Virus record (IMG/VR): IMGVR_UViG_3300036766_000086
Span: 1-42,555 of that record
DNA from: a virus
Length of the DNA: 42,555 bases
Reading direction: 5' to 3' (one strand)
Shown here: piece after piece, positions 4,701-42,555 of the stretch
Layout of the letters: each line of letters opens with the position of its first letter
How positions within the stretch are numbered: the stretch's first letter is position 1
The notes under the pieces: model-generated
Databases searched by the model: none
The model's input: the letters and a program-made list of their open reading frames with translations, nothing else
What the model was told of the DNA's origin: nothing
Translations under genes and position numbers: made by a program

Positions 4701-6130
4701 CCGAGATAGAAATTCTGGAAGAGCTTGCTTGCATAGAGGCGAGAGAATCATTCTATGCTTACCGTCAATATATTAATCCGAAACTTAAACTAGGTTGGTG
4801 GCAGAGGGAAGTTGCAACCGAATTGCAGCAGTTTTATGAAGACCTTTCGGCTGGACATTCACCTAAGCTGGTTATTCAAAGCCCCCCACAGCATGGGAAG
4901 TCTACCATTGTGATTGACTTCTTGTCGTGGATTGCCGGGAAAGATTCATCTTTGCGGACTATTTACACGTCTTTTTCTGAGCGTCTGGGCATACGGGCAA
5001 ACCTGCGAATGCAGCGGATAATGGATGGTCAAAAATATCATCGGGTTTTCGGAGCGCGAATTGGATTGACAATATCGGTCACGATTTCCAGCCAGTTATT
5101 ACGTAATAGGGAGATACTTGAGTACATTGGCGCTGAAGGTTATTTTAGAAATACCACTGTTTGCGGTAGCATTACAGGGGAATCGCTCGACCTTGGCGTG
5201 ATAGACGACCCAATAAAGGGCAGGGAGCAAGCACAGAGCTCGGTAATACGTCAAAAAACATGGGACTGGTTGACAGATGACTTTTTCACTAGGTTCAGCG
5301 AGCATGCGGGGCTGCTAGTTATATTGACGCGCTGGCACGTTGATGACCCAATTGGGCGGCTGCTTGAAAAAGATAAAACCATAAAACTGCTTACATATCC
5401 GGCCATAGCCATAAAAGATGATACATACCGGCGTATTGGCGAAGCATTATTCCCGGAGCATAAGAGCATAGAATTCCTTGAAAATATACGCTCAGTGATG
5501 GCGGTATCATCATTTGAGGCGTTATATCAGCAGGCACCAGTACTAATGGAAGGCAATCTATTTAAGCCTGACAATATCCCGATAATTGATGCATTGCCTG
5601 AGTATATTCAATACGTGAGAGCGTGGGACTTGGCCTCAACAGCAGGGGGAGGTGATTGGACTGTAGGTGCAAAAATAGGTATCACGTCCGATGGGTCGCG
5701 CATTATAATTGCGGACATCGTAAGGCTTAGAGGTAGCCCGGAGGAAGTCGAGGCAACTATAAAAAATACCGCGCAGCGTGACGGGAAAGAATGCACAATC
5801 AGATTGCCTCAAGACCCTGGACAAGCAGGGAAGGCACAGATTGCATATTTGACAAAGCAATTGATTGGGTTCAATATTCATTCTACACCGGTATCGGGCG
5901 ACAAAATCACCCGTGCAGAACCGTTTGCATCACAGTGTAACGTGGGCAATATATCAATGCTTAAAGCCGGATGGAACGATCAACTGGTGGATGAAATGCG
6001 GATGTTCCCTAATGGAACCTTCGATGATCAAATAGATGCGGGTTCAGACGCTTTCTCGGAAATAAGTCTAATTTATACCGGGGATGCGACTGTCGAGGTA
6101 TTTGGGTCAATGACTAAAATGGATTGGTGA
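4697..6130 (+). CDS. terL: Terminase large subunit
   Basis: A 477-residue packaging motor. The ATPase domain shows a Walker A-like PPQHGKST at about residues 63-70, a Walker B-like LGVIDDP near 166-172, and the coupling segment VILTRWHVDDPIGR. The C-terminal nuclease begins at RAWDLAST (about 308-315) and ends with FDDQIDAGSDAF near 447. This resembles the Mu gp28/Terminase_6C branch. Length is normal. It pairs with the small subunit immediately upstream. Confidence 0.95.
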   Translation: MTEIEILEELACIEARESFYAYRQYINPKLKLGWWQREVATELQQFYEDLSAGHSPKLVIQSPPQHGKSTIVIDFLSWIAGKDSSLRTIYTSFSERLGIRANLRMQRIMDGQKYHRVFGARIGLTISVTISSQLLRNREILEYIGAEGYFRNTTVCGSITGESLDLGVIDDPIKGREQAQSSVIRQKTWDWLTDDFFTRFSEHAGLLVILTRWHVDDPIGRLLEKDKTIKLLTYPAIAIKDDTYRRIGEALFPEHKSIEFLENIRSVMAVSSFEALYQQAPVLMEGNLFKPDNIPIIDALPEYIQYVRAWDLASTAGGGDWTVGAKIGITSDGSRIIIADIVRLRGSPEEVEATIKNTAQRDGKECTIRLPQDPGQAGKAQIAYLTKQLIGFNIHSTPVSGDKITRAEPFASQCNVGNISMLKAGWNDQLVDEMRMFPNGTFDDQIDAGSDAFSEISLIYTGDATVEVFGSMTKMDW

Positions 6131-30566: not shown

Positions 30567-30863
30567 TCATAATGTCGTGAACGGGCTTCCCGGTTGAAGA
30601 TTAAAACACTCCGGCCAAACATCTCTCCAGCCGGGTAAATCTTTACCCACTACAGGGGCTTCAATTTTCAATTCTGCAGTAGCTTTAAATCTCCCTGATG
30701 TACGGCTGATTTGCCTACCTATCTGGACAACTTCACCGCTACCGATTAATTCAAGCATGACTCTATATCTTGATGTATGTTGGGTCGGATTAACATCTTT
30801 CATCGAAAATTCTAACCCATTTTTGCGGGCGATTATTTTACGGATATCTTGTTTGAGGCTCAT
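30567..30863 (-). CDS. Small hypothetical protein, last gene of leftward operon
   Basis: A 98-residue basic protein (MSLKQDIRKIIARKNGLEFSMKDVNPTQHTSRYRVMLELIGSGEVVQIGRQISRTSGRFKA...). The middle resembles a winged-helix read: helix-rich start, then GEVVQIGRQ...SGRFKA like a wing. A DNA-binding role is possible. ATG 30863 follows the upstream stop after one base (TGATATG). Its first 12 codons are duplicated at 180-214. Confidence 0.6.
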   Translation of the reverse strand: MSLKQDIRKIIARKNGLEFSMKDVNPTQHTSRYRVMLELIGSGEVVQIGRQISRTSGRFKATAELKIEAPVVGKDLPGWRDVWPECFNLQPGSPFTTL

Positions 30864-30929
30864 ATCATCCCTTTGCTGCTTTTTTAATAATATCCCTGTA
30901 AACACCTTTTGAACGCAGGAAGCTGCAAC
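30829..30929 (-). repeat. Source copy of the 101-bp inverted duplication
   Basis: This segment spans the junction between two intact genes and is identical, in inverted orientation, to 114-214. Because both genes are intact here and fragmentary there, this is the donor copy. Position 30915 (G, - strand C) agrees with 128, not with the variant at 42479. Confidence 0.9.
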
Positions 30930-31128
30930 CAGTGACATCTTGAATCCATTCGCGCAATTCCACGTTTGGTTCAATCGGCACAAGTACATACCCTTCTTTT
31001 AGTTCTATCTCGCACTCATGTCTTTCAATCGTTATTACTGTATTGACAAGTTTTAGTATTCCAGGCGGAACCCGAACAGATAGGGGATCAATTGATTTCA
31101 TCAGGTTAAGTAATTCTTGTTCTGTCAT
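30865..31128 (-). CDS. Hypothetical protein
   Basis: An 87-residue protein (MTEQELLNLMKSIDPLSVRVPPGILKLVNTVITIERHECEIELKEGYVLVPIEPN..., ending ...RDIIKKAAKG). ATG 31128 has CGGAGGAGC upstream. The predicted alpha-beta content offers no family. It is directly upstream of, and almost contiguous with, the last leftward gene. Its final 20 codons are present in the duplicated fragment at 114-178. Confidence 0.6.
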   Translation of the reverse strand: MTEQELLNLMKSIDPLSVRVPPGILKLVNTVITIERHECEIELKEGYVLVPIEPNVELREWIQDVTGCSFLRSKGVYRDIIKKAAKG

Positions 31129-33203: not shown

Positions 33204-33422
33204 AGTTATTCCCCCTCGAATGAGTACGAATCGTCAGCCTTACGGGTTCAACGTGCTAACTTCGACGCGTTGTACATTATCTCAACCCTTACCCCCCCCA
33301 GTATGCTTAAACAATAACCGCTGGTCTTTATCCTCCCCAGTTATTGCCTTTCCTGCGTAACCCTCTGGACGGGTACTTTATAAGCATCTAGTCTCGGTAT
33401 GCTTTCGCTCAGACAATAGAAA

Positions 33423-33516
33423 AAGCCCGTAAAGACATTTAATATTGTAGTTAGCAGTACCGACACGACTCGGCGGGGATTTCTCCCCCTACAATATTAA
33501 ACAACCGTACGGGCTT
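33423..33516 (-). ncRNA. Multi-hairpin structured RNA or terminator
   Basis: The outer pairing is AAGCCCGT (33423-33430) with ACGGGCTT (33509-33516). The second helix is a perfect 13 bp, TTTAATATTGTAG (33438-33450) with CTACAATATTAAA (33489-33501). Inside are CCGA/TCGG and GGGGA/TCCCC hairpins. On the - strand the outer helix is followed by a run of T (GGGCTTTTTC), so it can terminate the methyltransferase transcript. The layered three-way-junction fold is more elaborate than a simple terminator needs. Confidence 0.6.
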
Positions 33517-33570
33517 GTTTGACGTGTTAGTGACTGCTAATCACTGATACACGAATATTACTTGATAAGC

Positions 33571-36585: not shown

Positions 36586-36593
36586 ATAAAACC

Positions 36594-36622
36594 TTGCAGG
36601 ATAAAGTTTAGTTTGGTATAAT
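36594..36622 (+). promoter_or_regulatory. Rightward early promoter with operator-like spacer
   Basis: TTGCAG (36594-36599), a 17-base spacer and TATAAT (36617-36622). The spacer contains AAAGTTTAGTTTG (36603-36615), identical to that of the promoter at 39928-39956, and AAGTTTAG is the inverse of CTAAACTT at 36560-36567. It points into the cassette array, whose first attC-like half site starts ten bases downstream, similar in layout to the cassette promoter of an integron. Confidence 0.7.
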
Positions 36623-36631
36623 TCTTACATC

Positions 36632-36661
36632 GCGCAGTCCCGCTTGAATGAAAGGTTAGAA
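36632..36661 (+). repeat. attC-like 3' half site at the head of the array
   Basis: GCGCAGTCCCGCTTGAATGA followed by AAGGTTAGAA matches the 3' arm and R' core (GTTAGAA, 36655-36661) of the intact sites. The 5' arm is replaced by the phage promoter. This is the promoter-proximal boundary of the rightward array. Confidence 0.65.
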
Positions 36662-36666
36662 CTGAG

Positions 36667-36981
36667 ATGCCCATAAGACCTGAAAACAAAGCACGTTACC
36701 CGAAAGACTGGAAACTGAGAAGCAGATTCGTGCGCTATTACCGGGCGCGTAACCACTGCGAATGGTGTGGTGTTGAAAATGGCAAGCCACATCCGATTAC
36801 AGGTAGCAAAGTAGTTTTGACAACTGCACATATTTTTGACCATAGACCGGAAGCGGCAAGCCTGTTGAACCTGGCGGCGTTGTGCCAAAAATGCCACAAC
36901 GCGCACGATGCCAAAATGCGGCGTGCAGGCAGCAAACAAAGAGCGGAACTTGCGAGTGGACAAAATACTTTGCAGTTTTAA
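36667..36981 (+). CDS. HNH endonuclease (first cassette gene)
   Basis: A 104-residue protein with YYRARNHCEWCGVENGKPHPI, TTAHIFDHRPEAASLLNLAALCQKCHNAHDAKMR. These are the paired CxxC zinc knuckles, the AHI(x)DH core and NLxxLCxxCHNxHD of phage HNH nucleases. Such enzymes act in DNA processing, packaging or homing. ATG 36667 lies five bases after the attC-like R' core. The stop codon falls within the next R'' core (TTTTAAC). Confidence 0.85.
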   Translation: MPIRPENKARYPKDWKLRSRFVRYYRARNHCEWCGVENGKPHPITGSKVVLTTAHIFDHRPEAASLLNLAALCQKCHNAHDAKMRRAGSKQRAELASGQNTLQF

Positions 36982-37002
36982 CGTGTAGTTGAGGGGTTAT
37001 GT
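36976..37002 (+). repeat. Minimal attC-like site without stem
   Basis: TTTTAAC (36976-36982) and GTTATGT (36996-37002) are only 27 bp apart, with GTGTAGTTGAGGG between them. The central stem is lost. It bounds the first noncoding element cassette. Confidence 0.5.
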
Positions 37003-37134
37003 TTCACAATAGAGTAAGCATGTAAGCCCATGCGTACCAAGCCCATAAGTATCACATCTTTGCGAAAGCATAGACTATGGCGGCAAGAGTTTGGAGTTGG
37101 AAGTTGCGACCAGCACTCTACTGTGAAACATAAC
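36997..37134 (+). ncRNA. Noncoding 138-bp cassette element, copy A
   Basis: The segment runs from TTATGTTTCAC to GTGAAACATAAC, with terminal inverted repeats of about 19 bp. It encodes no plausible protein. Inner pairings include GCATG/CATGC and GCCCATA/TATGGC. It differs from copy B (37456-37593) at four positions, so both copies are recent or conserved. It could be a small RNA or regulatory element carried as a cassette. Confidence 0.6.
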
Positions 37135-37185
37135 GTAAAGTAACCGGCTCGCTTTAGCGAGTCCGAGTTGACCGCAGGGTTGGGC
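37128..37185 (+). repeat. attC-like site
   Basis: R'' ACATAAC (37128-37134) and R' GTTGGGC (37179-37185). The stem GGCTCGC/GCGAGTCC encloses TTTA, with one extra base in the 3' arm as in the other sites. Confidence 0.85.
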
Positions 37186-37212
37186 GGCAATTTTTAACAG
37201 GAGAAATATAGC

Positions 37213-37398
37213 ATGACACCAGAACGAATTGCTGAAATAGAAGCATCCTTTGGCGAAGGAGCAAAGCTTGTGCATTACTCACCGGCGATTGATGAGACAT
37301 GCGATCACGAGTGGCGCGATGGCGTAGACGGGAACCCAGAGCAATGTACTAAATGCGGGATTAGTTTCACTAGATATATTCACTGCTGCTGCCCTTGA
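37213..37398 (+). CDS. Zinc-ribbon protein (cassette gene)
   Basis: A 61-residue protein. CDHEWRDGVDGNPEQCTKCGISFTR is a zinc motif found in small phage proteins, with C/H ligands C30, H32, C45 and C48 and a CCC near the end. ATG 37213 follows CAGGAGAAATATAGC, 28 bases after the attC R' core. Function unknown. Confidence 0.75.
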   Translation: MTPERIAEIEASFGEGAKLVHYSPAIDETCDHEWRDGVDGNPEQCTKCGISFTRYIHCCCP

Positions 37399-37399
37399 C

Positions 37400-37461
37400 G
37401 CCCAACGTGTGAGGTAAGGGGCTGCCGCTTCTGGGCAGTCACCTCGAACGTAGGGTTATGT
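37400..37461 (+). repeat. attC-like site
   Basis: R'' GCCCAAC (37400-37406) and R' GTTATGT (37455-37461). The stem GGCTGCC/GGCAGTC encloses GCTTCTG. It starts two bases after the stop codon of the zinc-ribbon gene. Confidence 0.8.
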
Positions 37462-37593
37462 TTGACACTAGAGTAAGCATGTAAGCCCATGCGTACCAAG
37501 CCCATAAGTATCACATCTTTGCGAAAGCATAGACTATGGCGGCAAGAGTTTGGAGCTGGAGGTTGCGACCAGCACTCTACTGTGAAACATAAC
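37456..37593 (+). ncRNA. Noncoding 138-bp cassette element, copy B
   Basis: This is the same length as copy A with four substitutions. One is in GAG(T/C)TGG, which pairs with CCAGCACTC, and the two versions are a G-U and a G-C pair. Two others fall in the left terminal repeat and weaken its pairing. It is followed by an attC-like site, as copy A is. Confidence 0.6.
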
Positions 37594-37647
37594 GTATGAA
37601 TTCAGCGGCTCGCGCTTCTGCGAGTCCGTTGGAATGATGGGTTAGCC
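37587..37647 (+). repeat. attC-like site
   Basis: R'' ACATAAC (37587-37593) and R' GTTAGCC (37641-37647). The stem GGCTCGC/GCGAGTCC encloses GCTTCT. Confidence 0.8.
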
Positions 37648-37687
37648 GCCTACCCCAAAAAGAGCGACATAACTGAAAGGAAATTGT

Positions 37688-37855
37688 GTGACAACAACTG
37701 TAATTATCAAAGCACATTGCTCTAGCGACAAAGAGGTGAAAGTCATTGTCCGAGACAAGATTACCGGCGAAGATTTTACTCTGCAAGATGGCGAGACAGC
37801 CGAGCATTATATTTATGATGGCCGCGAAATCAGCGTGCAGGAAGTTACCAAGTAA
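37688..37855 (+). CDS. Small hypothetical protein with GTG start (cassette gene)
   Basis: A 55-residue beta-rich protein (MTTTVIIKAHCSSDKEVKVIVRDKITGEDFTLQDGETAEHYIYDGREISVQEVTK). GTG 37688 has AAAGGAAA upstream. It reads like a small beta-barrel similar to other short phage proteins that end in (R/E)EI(S/T)V.EV. It is followed by a hairpin and an attC-like site. No family named. Confidence 0.65.
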   Translation: MTTTVIIKAHCSSDKEVKVIVRDKITGEDFTLQDGETAEHYIYDGREISVQEVTK

Positions 37856-37860
37856 AGATT

Positions 37861-37886
37861 AAAACCCCTCTCAAAAAGAGGGGCGG
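37861..37886 (-). terminator. Hairpin terminator, active mainly on the - strand
   Basis: CCCCTCT (37865-37871) pairs with AGAGGGG (37877-37883). The + strand has AAAA before the stem, so on the - strand the hairpin is followed by TTTTAATC, a rho-independent terminator. On the + strand there is no T-run. It may block antisense transcription into the array. Confidence 0.55.
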
Positions 37887-37941
37887 CAACGTAAAGTAAC
37901 CGGCTTGCTTTAGCGAGCCCGGGTTGACCGCAGGGTTAGCC
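37884..37941 (+). repeat. attC-like site
   Basis: R'' CGGCAAC (37884-37890), degenerate, and R' GTTAGCC (37935-37941). The stem GGCTTGC/GCGAGCC encloses TTTA. Confidence 0.75.
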
Positions 37942-37964
37942 ACCTTTTGGTTACGGAGAACGAA

Positions 37965-38414
37965 TTGCTAACTATAACACCTATAAATCTTGACGAAGCA
38001 AACGCCTTTGTCTCAAAGCACCACCGGCATTATAAACCAGTGCCAGGGGCGAAGTTTTGCATTGCAGTTAGCGAAGATAATGTTGTGCGGGGCGTTGCAA
38101 TTGTTGGGAGGCCAGTCGCAAGGATGAGTGATACAGGCTTTACGCTCGAAGTAAACCGCTGCTGTACAGACGGTGCGCGTAATGCCTGCTCAATGCTCTA
38201 TGGCGCGGCATGGCGGGCGGCGAAAGCTTTGGGGTATCTCAGGCTTATAACCTACACATTGCCAGAAGAGGGTGGCGCGAGTTTGCGGGCTAGTGGATGG
38301 AAGAATATAGGATTAAGAGGGGGCGGAAACTGGAATGTTAAGTCACGCCCAAGGATTGATACCGCCGAATTACTACAAGGGCAAAAAACCTTGTGGGAAG
38401 CCTGCGGTGGCTAA
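37965..38414 (+). CDS. XF1762-type phage protein, acetyltransferase-like (cassette gene)
   Basis: A 149-residue protein (LDEANAFVSKHHRHYKPVPGAKFCIAV...GVAIVGRPVARM...LEVNRCCTDGARNACSMLYGAAWRAAKALGYLRLITYTLPEEGGASLRASGWK). These motifs are those of the XF1762 family of phage proteins, which have a GNAT-like fold pattern. TTG 37965 is chosen because ACGGAGAA is four bases upstream and the family starts with MLTI.P. The stop codon lies in the next attC-like core (GGCTAAC). Confidence 0.85.
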   Translation: MLTITPINLDEANAFVSKHHRHYKPVPGAKFCIAVSEDNVVRGVAIVGRPVARMSDTGFTLEVNRCCTDGARNACSMLYGAAWRAAKALGYLRLITYTLPEEGGASLRASGWKNIGLRGGGNWNVKSRPRIDTAELLQGQKTLWEACGG

Positions 38415-38466
38415 CGTAAAGTAACCGGCTTGCTTTAGCGAGTCCGGGTTGACCGCAGGGTTGTGC
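38409..38466 (+). repeat. attC-like site
   Basis: R'' GGCTAAC (38409-38415) and R' GTTGTGC (38460-38466). The interior is almost identical to 37134-37179. Confidence 0.8.
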
Positions 38467-38494
38467 GTAAACTTTCAACAACGAAGGATTAAAA

Positions 38495-38641
38495 ATGTCA
38501 GTAGGCAACGGAGCTATCCACATATACAAGAAAATTAGGTGTCAGCATTGCGGCAAGGAAACTGACGTACTATTTAAAAATAATCATGGCGTGTTGCATT
38601 GTAGCTGTGGCGCGGTGATTAATATTGATATTAAAGTATGA
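38495..38641 (+). CDS. Small zinc-ribbon protein (cassette gene)
   Basis: A 48-residue protein (MSVGNGAIHIYKKIRCQHCGKETDVLFKNNHGVLHCSCGAVINIDIKV) with CxxC and CxC, a minimal zinc ribbon. ATG 38495 follows GAAGGATTAAAA. It ends two bases into the flank of the next attC-like site. This size is common among integron cassette products of unknown function. Confidence 0.7.
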   Translation: MSVGNGAIHIYKKIRCQHCGKETDVLFKNNHGVLHCSCGAVINIDIKV

Positions 38642-38642
38642 C

Positions 38643-38705
38643 GCCCAACGTAGAGTTAACCGGCTCCGCGCTTTTGCGGAGTCCGGGTTGAACGATGGGT
38701 TAGGC
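38643..38705 (+). repeat. attC-like site, best consensus copy
   Basis: R'' GCCCAAC (38643-38649) and R' GTTAGGC (38699-38705) both fit the integron core consensus. Arms TTAACCGGCTCCGC and GCGGAGTCCGGGTTGA enclose GCTTTT. Aligning the arms leaves an extra T (GAGTCC) and an extra G (CGGGTT) in the 3' arm, the extrahelical-base asymmetry expected of attC hairpins. Confidence 0.9.
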
Positions 38706-38737
38706 TCTCACCCTTGACGAGAGCACAGGAGAACAAC

Positions 38738-38884
38738 ATGGGATTTAGCCTTGAACAAATGATTGCAGATCTTGAGGAATTAATTGCTTTGGAAACGAAC
38801 CCAACGGGCATTTTGCCAGAACTCGCTGAGCGGCTGACGTGGTGGAAAAACTACGCAAAAGAATGTGGGCAATTGAGGGCCTAA
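38738..38884 (+). CDS. Small helical hypothetical protein (cassette gene)
   Basis: A 48-residue acidic helical protein (MGFSLEQMIADLEELIALETNPTGILPELAERLTWWKNYAKECGQLRA). The start follows ACAGGAGAACAAC. The stop TAA is part of the next R'' core GCCTAAC. No family recognised; it resembles short helix-hairpin phage proteins. Confidence 0.65.
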   Translation: MGFSLEQMIADLEELIALETNPTGILPELAERLTWWKNYAKECGQLRA

Positions 38885-38941
38885 CGTGTGAGGTAAGGGT
38901 CGCCCGCTTTTGCAGAGTCCGCGTTGAACGATGGGTTGGGC
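38879..38941 (+). repeat. attC-like site
   Basis: R'' GCCTAAC (38879-38885) and R' GTTGGGC (38935-38941). The arms are less well paired than in neighbouring sites (GGGTCGCCCGCTTTTGCAGA). Confidence 0.8.
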
Positions 38942-38964
38942 TGAATTTTAAAAGAGGATATAAA

Positions 38965-39183
38965 ATGAAGTATAGCGAATATTTAATGAGTAGACGGCCA
39001 GCGAATAAAGAAAAAGAACGAATAGAACAGCACGTACAAGAATTATTAGCTCTATGGAGAGCCACAGCAGCATCTGTTGCTGGGTCAAGTAACTGCGTAA
39101 GAGAAACATCAGCAGGTGATTTTGCAAAGCAGGTAGTGCTAGATTATCAAAAATTTTGTGCCGAAGTAGGATGGCCGATATAG
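38965..39183 (+). CDS. Small hypothetical protein (cassette gene)
   Basis: A 72-residue helical protein (MKYSEYLMSRRPANKEKERIEQHVQELLALWRATAASVAGSS...KQVVLDYQKFCAEVGWPI). ATG 38965 follows GAGGATATAAA. A longer frame starting at 38839 crosses the attC site and is rejected. Function unknown. Confidence 0.65.
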   Translation: MKYSEYLMSRRPANKEKERIEQHVQELLALWRATAASVAGSSNCVRETSAGDFAKQVVLDYQKFCAEVGWPI

Positions 39184-39185
39184 AC

Positions 39186-39247
39186 GCACAACGTAAAGTA
39201 ACCGGCTCCGCGCTTTTGCGGAGTCCGCGTTGAACGATGGGTTGGGC
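39186..39247 (+). repeat. attC-like site
   Basis: R'' GCACAAC (39186-39192) and R' GTTGGGC (39241-39247). The stem GGCTCCGC/GCGGAGTCC encloses GCTTTT. Confidence 0.85.
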
Positions 39248-39260
39248 AACGAAAGGATGA

Positions 39261-39491
39261 ATGATGATAAATACAGGAATGACAACACCGCTTTGCGGGC
39301 ATTGTGGCAGACCAGTAATAGCGGGAACGGTATATTTTGGCGGGAACGCATACCACTATGAATGTACACAAAGTCCGAGCGGGAAACAGTCTTTTGTACC
39401 AGTGCAACTTTCGGAAGAGCAAATACGCCATATTGTGCGAGAAGAAGTGGCAAGATTAAGCGCGCCTTATGGTATGCCAACGTACTTTTAG
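39261..39491 (+). CDS. LIM-like zinc protein (cassette gene)
   Basis: A 76-residue protein. TPLCGHCGRPVIAGTVYFGGNAYHYECTQSP is the C-x2-C...H-x3-C knuckle of LIM-like phage proteins. A helical tail follows (LSEEQIRHIVREEVARLSAPYG). ATG 39261 and 39264 are both possible; AAGGA at 39253 gives better spacing to 39264. Confidence 0.75.
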   Translation: MMINTGMTTPLCGHCGRPVIAGTVYFGGNAYHYECTQSPSGKQSFVPVQLSEEQIRHIVREEVARLSAPYGMPTYF

Positions 39492-39542
39492 GCGACATAA
39501 AAAGCCTCTAACCAGAATGATTATTGACGTGGCCGCTATGAA

Positions 39543-39623
39543 GCCTAACGTATGATGGAGGTCTATCAATTAATTAAACTTTTACGCGCTTTTGCGGAGT
39601 CCGGGTTGAACGATGGGTTGGGC
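39543..39623 (+). repeat. attC-like site with altered 5' arm
   Basis: R'' GCCTAAC (39543-39549) and R' GTTGGGC (39617-39623). At 81 bp it is longer than its neighbours, because the 5' arm is replaced by sequence including TCAATTAATTAAACTTTTA (39566-39584), which recurs at 39900-39918. Confidence 0.75.
39566..39584 (+). repeat. 19-bp direct repeat, copy 1
   Basis: TCAATTAATTAAACTTTTA is identical to 39900-39918. Both copies follow a shortened attC R'' side (AACGTATGATGGAGGTC and AACGTGTAATATGGGTC). They flank the last cassette before the recombination operon and suggest duplication or recombination at this junction. Confidence 0.8.
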
Positions 39624-39646
39624 GGCACTTAACAACGAGGAACAGA

Positions 39647-39889
39647 ATGAAACTCGATAGCGACACACTAAAGAAAAGATTGAGATACCAGGGTAAACAA
39701 TATTCATCTGGAATGTTGTCAAGGGGAGGTAACCCAGAATTGCATATCATGACGCAAGCGGCGGACAGAATAGATGAACTTGAAAACGCACTATTTGATT
39801 TATTAAATGATTGCATAAATTTCAATGGCGGGAAATTGACGGATTGCATCATGGAGCACGCAAGTAAAATACTGACGCCCAACGTGTAA
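39647..39889 (+). CDS. Hypothetical protein (last cassette of this array)
   Basis: An 80-residue protein (MKLDSDTLKKRLRYQGKQYSSGMLSRGGNPELHIMTQAADRIDELENALFDLLNDC...). The AADRIDELENAL pattern is frequent in small phage proteins of unknown role. The C-terminus LTPNV and the stop are encoded by the R'' side of the following partial attC (GCCCAACGTGTAA), as in the protein at 42190. Confidence 0.7.
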   Translation: MKLDSDTLKKRLRYQGKQYSSGMLSRGGNPELHIMTQAADRIDELENALFDLLNDCINFNGGKLTDCIMEHASKILTPNV

Positions 39890-39899
39890 TATGGGTCGG
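39877..39899 (+). repeat. attC-like 5' half site at the array exit
   Basis: R'' GCCCAAC (39877-39883) is followed by GTGTAATATGGGTCGG. The stem and R' core are absent, and the phage promoter region follows. This marks the border between the array and the recombination operon. Confidence 0.6.
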
Positions 39900-39918
39900 T
39901 CAATTAATTAAACTTTTA
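39900..39918 (+). repeat. 19-bp direct repeat, copy 2
   Basis: Identical to 39566-39584. It lies between the partial attC-like site and the promoter at 39928. It is probably the original copy, because it is contiguous with phage promoter sequence. Confidence 0.8.
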
Positions 39919-39927
39919 AGAAATAGC

Positions 39928-39956
39928 TTTACATGCAAAGTTTAGTTTGCTATAAT
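39928..39956 (+). promoter_or_regulatory. Promoter of the recombination operon with operator-like spacer
   Basis: TTTACA (39928-39933), a 17-base spacer and TATAAT (39951-39956). The spacer contains AAAGTTTAGTTTG (39937-39949), identical to that of the promoter at 36594-36622. This implies common control, most simply by the Cro-like protein encoded at 36356-36550. Confidence 0.75.
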
Positions 39957-42189: not shown

Positions 42190-42429
42190 ATGAGCGGATT
42201 TAAAACAAAGTTTTGCTGGTTTCCTGTGCGATTGGCACGACATATAAAATGCGATGAGACTAAACCATTTGCCGATATTGGGCCAAATATGGAATTCATC
42301 GGGTGGGTGTGGATGCAACGCGCGCACTTAACTGACAACTTAAACCACGGATGGGTTGCATTCCTCGACAGCAAGCCGATGGAGCCGCGTTGCAAAACCT
42401 GCGGGCAACTGCTGACGCCCAACGTGTGA
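42190..42429 (+). CDS. Hypothetical protein (cassette gene)
   Basis: A 79-residue protein (MSGFKTKFCWFPVRLARHIKCDETKPFADIGPNMEFIGWVWMQRAHLTDNLNHGWVAFLDSKP...CKTCGQLLTPNV), with a CxxC near the end. The start follows ACGGAGAAAAAAA, 24 bases after the attC R' core. The final TPNV and stop are encoded by the next attC-like R'' side. Its last 25 codons reappear at 1-78 through the circular overlap. Confidence 0.7.
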   Translation: MSGFKTKFCWFPVRLARHIKCDETKPFADIGPNMEFIGWVWMQRAHLTDNLNHGWVAFLDSKPMEPRCKTCGQLLTPNV

Positions 42430-42555
42430 GGTAAGGGGTCACGCGCTTTTGCGTGATCCCTCTTGTTGCAGCTTCCTGTGTTCAAAAGGTGTTTACAGGG
42501 ATATTATTAAAAAAGCAGCAAAGGGATGATATGAGCCTCAAACAAGATATCCGTA
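42352..42555. repeat. Terminal direct repeat (circular overlap), right copy
   Basis: Matches bases 1-204 except for 42479 (T, versus C at 128 and C in the - strand source copy at 30915). It ends inside the 101-bp duplicated segment, a plausible place for an assembler to stop. Confidence 0.9.
42417..42467 (+). repeat. attC-like site, truncated (right copy of 66-116)
   Basis: R'' GCCCAAC (42417-42423) and the stem GGGGTCACGC/GCGTGATCCC are present. The 3' end with R' is replaced by the duplicated phage segment after CTTG. Confidence 0.75.

Follow-up and report, generated by a model that had tools for sequence, protein, structure and literature searches.

A duplicated 138-bp unit in the attC array of a phage, probably a gene-less integron cassette with extended terminal arms

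Integron cassettes that carry no gene are an established kind and have been described from Vibrionaceae superintegrons (PMC11014356) and from oral Treponema (PMC6557892). These gene-less or ORF-less cassettes resemble the unit reported here in having an attC site and no gene and in lying inside an array, while the unit differs from them in its 138-bp body, its 20-bp arms, its location in a phage without an integrase and the different stems of its copies. Clusters of attC sites without an integrase are likewise an established kind in phages, as given in the cited passages of Qi et al. 2023 (PMC9892861). The phage CALINs of those passages are alike in being attC arrays without an integrase, but duplicated gene-less units with long arms are not described there. 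The integron-encoded Xanthomonas small RNA sRNA-Xcc1, as cited in PMC6557892 and PMC8876359, is similar in being a noncoding cassette, whereas the present unit has no Rfam match and no sign of a transcript or of interior structure. The IS1111-attC insertion sequences (PMC11187229) are mobile DNA tied to attC ends and also have inverted repeats; they carry a DEDD transposase and subterminal repeats of 11-13 bp, whereas the present unit has no gene and its terminal repeats are R boxes. Gene-less cassettes have been counted in bacterial integrons and hardly in phages. With a noncoding cassette that is the same in two phages and brackets further cassettes in both, it can be tested concretely whether selection for spread can act on the ends of cassettes themselves instead of on genes, and whether attC arms that reach past the R boxes influence recombination.

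The window (the whole stretch of 42,555 nucleotides analysed, IMG/VR record IMGVR_UViG_3300036766_000086) contained a terminase large subunit gene, which identifies it as a phage record. Positions 1-204 and 42352-42555 form a direct terminal repeat of 204 nt that is identical at 203 positions, with one mismatch. The record, though not labelled in this way, therefore probably covers a whole phage genome that is circular or circularly permuted. The whole window gave no match to the PF00589 tyrosine recombinase family, so the cassette array was classed as a CALIN, with at least two attC sites and no neighbouring integron integrase. Further attC sites were located outside the main array, at 42417-42471 and within the first 600 bases. 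The automatic attC scan was too permissive and served as a guide only. The features of the array region are as follows.

36593 to 36622, + strand: promoter-like site before the array, with an extended -10 (TGGTATAAT) and a weak -35; it recurs at 39937-39956, just past the array
36631 to 39914, + strand: cassette array (CALIN) with attC sites, holding E1 and E2, and no tyrosine integrase in the record
36653 to 36995, + strand: HNH endonuclease cassette upstream of E1 (phrog_1571, E 2e-19)
36996 to 37134, + strand: unit E1, gene-less cassette body running from G|TTATG to ACATAAC, 138 bp after the G
36996 to 37015, + strand: left arm of E1, the R' core GTTATGT extended to 20 nt
37115 to 37134, + strand: right arm of E1, ending in the R'' core ACATAAC
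37128 to 37185, + strand: attC after E1
37179 to 37406, + strand: cassette body between E1 and E2, with a 61-aa ORF (37213-37398)
37400 to 37461, + strand: attC between the 61-aa cassette and E2
37455 to 37593, + strand: unit E2, the second copy, with four differences from E1
37587 to 37647, + strand: attC after E2

The preliminary description of this DNA had reported two 138-bp copies at 36997-37134 and 37456-37593, differing at four positions, each with an R'-like core at its start and ACATAAC followed by an attC stem at its end; the coordinates, the count and both ends were confirmed for the two units. Positions 36997 and 37456 are the first bases past the G of G|TT, and with that G each unit is 139 nt long. 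The differences between E1 and E2 are exactly four (37005 C/G, 37009 A/C, 37097 T/C and 37102 A/G). Both units start at G|TT, the integron exchange point, and end in the R'' box (ACATAAC), after which an attC stem follows. The G|TTRRRY start and the R''-attC end that bound a gene-less cassette were thus present in both copies, with a truncated attC before the first: only the left half (AACGTGTAGTTGAGG) of the 3' attC of the HNH cassette remains before the R' core of E1. For the 61-aa ORF of the cassette between the units, a GATA zinc-finger match was weak and below the cut-off.

Reading of all six frames showed no credible gene in E1 or E2, in agreement with the earlier statement that the copies hold no plausible gene, and the antisense 70-codon ORF had no PHROG match. 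A protein-coding unit was rejected, as neither the 37-codon nor the 70-codon frame had support. The two interior differences between E1 and E2 are both silent in one + strand frame; this frame has no start codon, and chance suffices to account for it.

Distant blastn searches found no homologue of the unit in INPHARED (50,697 phage records) or PLSDB (72,556 plasmid records). A bacterial integron homologue was not found either, the one exact interior 24-mer scanned being absent from genome_contigs (85,000 prokaryote genomes), and a search for a bacterial source of this type of attC gave none. In viral_contigs, six scans that used pieces or arms of the unit gave only one real relative, in phage contig IMGVR_UViG_3300032163_000050 (L007); apart from this contig, the interior and arm patterns had chance matches only. 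Matches of 18-19 nt in contig L021 and of 17 nt in contig L043 lay in unrelated sequence context and were taken as chance. The attC arrays of similar type in other environmental phages (L032, L033 and L029, the last being MW202573) make the cassette-bearing phages look like a recurring group.

The L007 copy (5344-5468) is 100% identical to E1 over 125-126 nt and then diverges. Other sequence stands in place of the right arm, and the copy has no downstream attC of its own; on its 3' side lie an intrinsic terminator and then a gene for a GH19-type endolysin. The copy adjoins two cassettes, which sit between ...ACATTATTGTGAAACATAAC-attC and attC-GTTATGTTTCACAATAGAGT..., the latter being the left end of the unit. 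A 57-aa reading frame ends at the left-edge ACATTATTGTGAAACATAAC-attC, and ACATTATTGTGAAACATAAC matches the reverse complement of the left arm of the unit at 18 of 20 positions (p ~1e-5 for at least 11 of 13 further matches, given the R'' box). The L007 layout corresponds to the E1-attC-cassette-attC-E2 of the window with its outer parts lost and, equally, to a circular permutation of the cassette. In an empty-site search, the 171-aa L007 gene upstream of the array had no relatives in viral_contigs beyond its own contig. Apart from the unit and attC-type sequence, the two phages share, at this search level, only a holin region that is 84% identical. Since the unit is 100% identical while the holin region is 84% identical, the unit would have been either exchanged recently between phages or strongly conserved. 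The presence of this third copy in a second virus indicates that the unit spreads.

The terminal inverted repeats noted in the preliminary description were confirmed and extend over 20 bp (GTTATGTTTCACAATAGAGT / ACTCTACTGTGAAACATAAC), with 19 of 20 positions complementary in E1 (36996-37015 against 37115-37134) and 18 of 20 in E2. A match of 19/20 was reached in none of 200,000 shuffles in which the body was shuffled and the 7-nt cores were kept fixed. Some terminal complementarity is expected, because once a cassette is excised as a circle its R' box pairs with its R'' box. In the other scored cassettes of the array it amounted to 3-12 bp, compared with 20 bp in the units, a comparison that omits the rows of the HNH and c10 cassettes, anchored a few bases off. 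The unit is probably a gene-less (ORF-less) integron cassette body in a phage CALIN with over-extended R' and R'' arms. The terminal inverted repeats would then be R' and R'' boxes belonging to the cassette itself and lengthened to 20 bp, where 7-12 bp is usual; the attC hairpin stem would gain about 13 bp in the excised circle or at a junction of two units. Movement would be by the integrase of a host integron acting in trans, together with homologous recombination between phages.

The stems around the units were compared with one another. The bodies of E1 and E2 are 97% identical, while the attC stems that follow them are 67% identical; two other array cassettes have attCs with 93-95% identity to the stem after E1. 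The L007 left-edge stem is 55% and 65% identical to the stems after E1 and E2, respectively, and the attC between the 61-aa cassette and E2 has a stem 83% identical to that of the attC before the L007 copy. Body and stem would stay together if the integrase acted at R' alone. An attC stem usually travels with its body, which is not strictly defining as stems may recombine, and here it did not. The mismatch counts against duplication by the integrase only, because a cassette duplicated in that way would keep its stem. E1, E2 and the L007 left edge each have a different stem, so that the unit body moves or recombines separately from the stem. The ordinary explanation would be that similar attCs within the array recombined or that template switching took place between them, and movement of the unit without its stem would be the novel one.

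Another reading, which we consider unlikely, is a small MITE-like, non-autonomous inverted-repeat element whose insertions would lie between attC sites and which would move as a 138-bp unit independently of the stem. The precise inverted-repeat ends, the bodies of 97-100% identity whose right arms are nevertheless followed by three different attC stems (E1, E2 and the L007 left edge) and the further copy in L007 are consistent with such an element. However, no target-site duplication was seen, the flanks of the units being attC cores; no transposase was found nearby; and the ends coincide exactly with the integron R' and R'' cores, which cassette biology already requires. Scans with the arm sequences gave no further family members, the left-border arm of L007 being the only end in viral_contigs that was shared without the interior, and the L007 copy has one intact end only. 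The earlier proposal of a small mobile element with inverted repeats and with attC sites as its means of movement stands in part: the 100% identical copy in an otherwise mostly unrelated phage and the different stems that follow E1, E2 and the L007 left-edge arm speak for it.

On the reading as a gene-less cassette, the long arms may have a further consequence. In both phages, removal of the cassettes would leave the attC around them with long arms. A long-armed attC might fold more readily and act as a landing pad for cassettes or as a bracket for recombination; this is suggested, weakly, because in both phages, two cases, the cassettes sit exactly between the right arm of a unit (or its remnant) and the next left arm. 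The 98-99 bp interior would in that case have little sequence-specific role. The published determinants of attC extrusion are the length of the loop (VTS), misfolding and supercoiling, and not stem length beyond the R boxes (PMC8946536), which speaks against the landing-pad step. There is a low probability that the unit is a noncoding parasite of integron arrays, bounded by inverted repeats made from the integron core sites, which would move between attC sites and phages without its stem and create long-armed landing pads that collect cassettes.

RNA folding of the whole units on the two strands, compared with shuffled sequences, gave z-scores of -4.8 and -5.9 for E1 and -3.5 and -5.0 for E2. 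Folding of the 99-nt interior gave 0.11 and -0.69 for E1 and -0.22 and -1.95 for E2. The folding excess therefore sits in the arms, as the interior alone folds no better than shuffles, whereas a structured RNA would be expected to show an excess there. When folded as a circular single DNA strand, the whole cassette had z-scores of -3.7 to -4.5, while every neighbour tested lay between -1.4 and +1.5. The retained internal pairings noted earlier do not show structure: the interior folds no better than shuffled sequence, the G-U/G-C exchange is a single substitution, and the change at 37005/37464, one of two arm differences, breaks an arm pair in the left arm of E2.

The unit is improbable as a small RNA, or as an RNA that acts in cis such as an antiterminator or a leader aiding transcription through the array, closed by the 20-bp stem. 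Folding of the whole unit better than shuffles (z -3.5 to -5.9), its location downstream of the promoter-like site, the L007 copy in the leader of the endolysin gene before the intrinsic terminator and the gene-less Xanthomonas cassette that encodes sRNA-Xcc1 (as cited in PMC6557892) agree with such a role, but the interior z-scores are about 0, no Rfam family matched, the closing stem is lost in the L007 copy and one E2 change breaks an arm pair. Scanning of the array, the units and the L007 region with Rfam covariance models (sRNA-Xcc1 or any family) gave only chance matches at the unit, and no tRNA was found. The cassette-borne small RNA suggested earlier was not supported, there being no interior folding excess, Rfam match or internal sigma-70-type promoter, and no positive evidence was obtained that the unit makes a working RNA.

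A promoter-bearing gene-less cassette that drives downstream cassettes or genes is very unlikely. Most of the gene-less Vibrionaceae cassettes tested had promoter activity that in-silico tools could not predict (PMC11014356), and the L007 unit precedes an endolysin gene; however, no sigma-70-like site was found inside the units, and the array already has the promoter-like site at 36593-36622. This site overlaps one copy of a 19/20 direct repeat that flanks the array (36603-36622 and 39937-39956). The TGNTATAAT extended -10 occurs twice in the window, both times in this repeat, and insertion of the array may have taken place next to a promoter that was duplicated.

Other observations were made on the array and the rest of the window. 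One array cassette (37947-38414) has a gene for a Mom-like protein of DNA modification (phrog_1384, E 1e-38), plausibly a defence against host restriction. Breaks in the middle of an attC were seen at the left border of the array (36631-36660, with an attC right half), at its right border (39880-39914, with an attC left half) and at the junction before E1 (36979-36995), a pattern that would fit the use of breaks at the tips of attC hairpins. At the right border of the array lies the 19-nt sequence TCAATTAATTAAACTTTTA, which is also present within one attC (39543-39623). Beyond the attC at 42417, window positions 42466-42555 repeat, in inverted orientation and with 95% identity, the end (30839-30939) of the gene at 30865-31128; the G|TT of the attC is joined to the duplicated gene end at G|TTGCAGC, and the join looks like a cassette insertion at a secondary site. 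A Betaproteobacteria-1 RNA (Rfam RF02932) was detected at 33229-33347 on the - strand, with 60.9 bits against a gathering score of 49.4, and an inverted repeat lies upstream of it on that strand, at 33420-33519.
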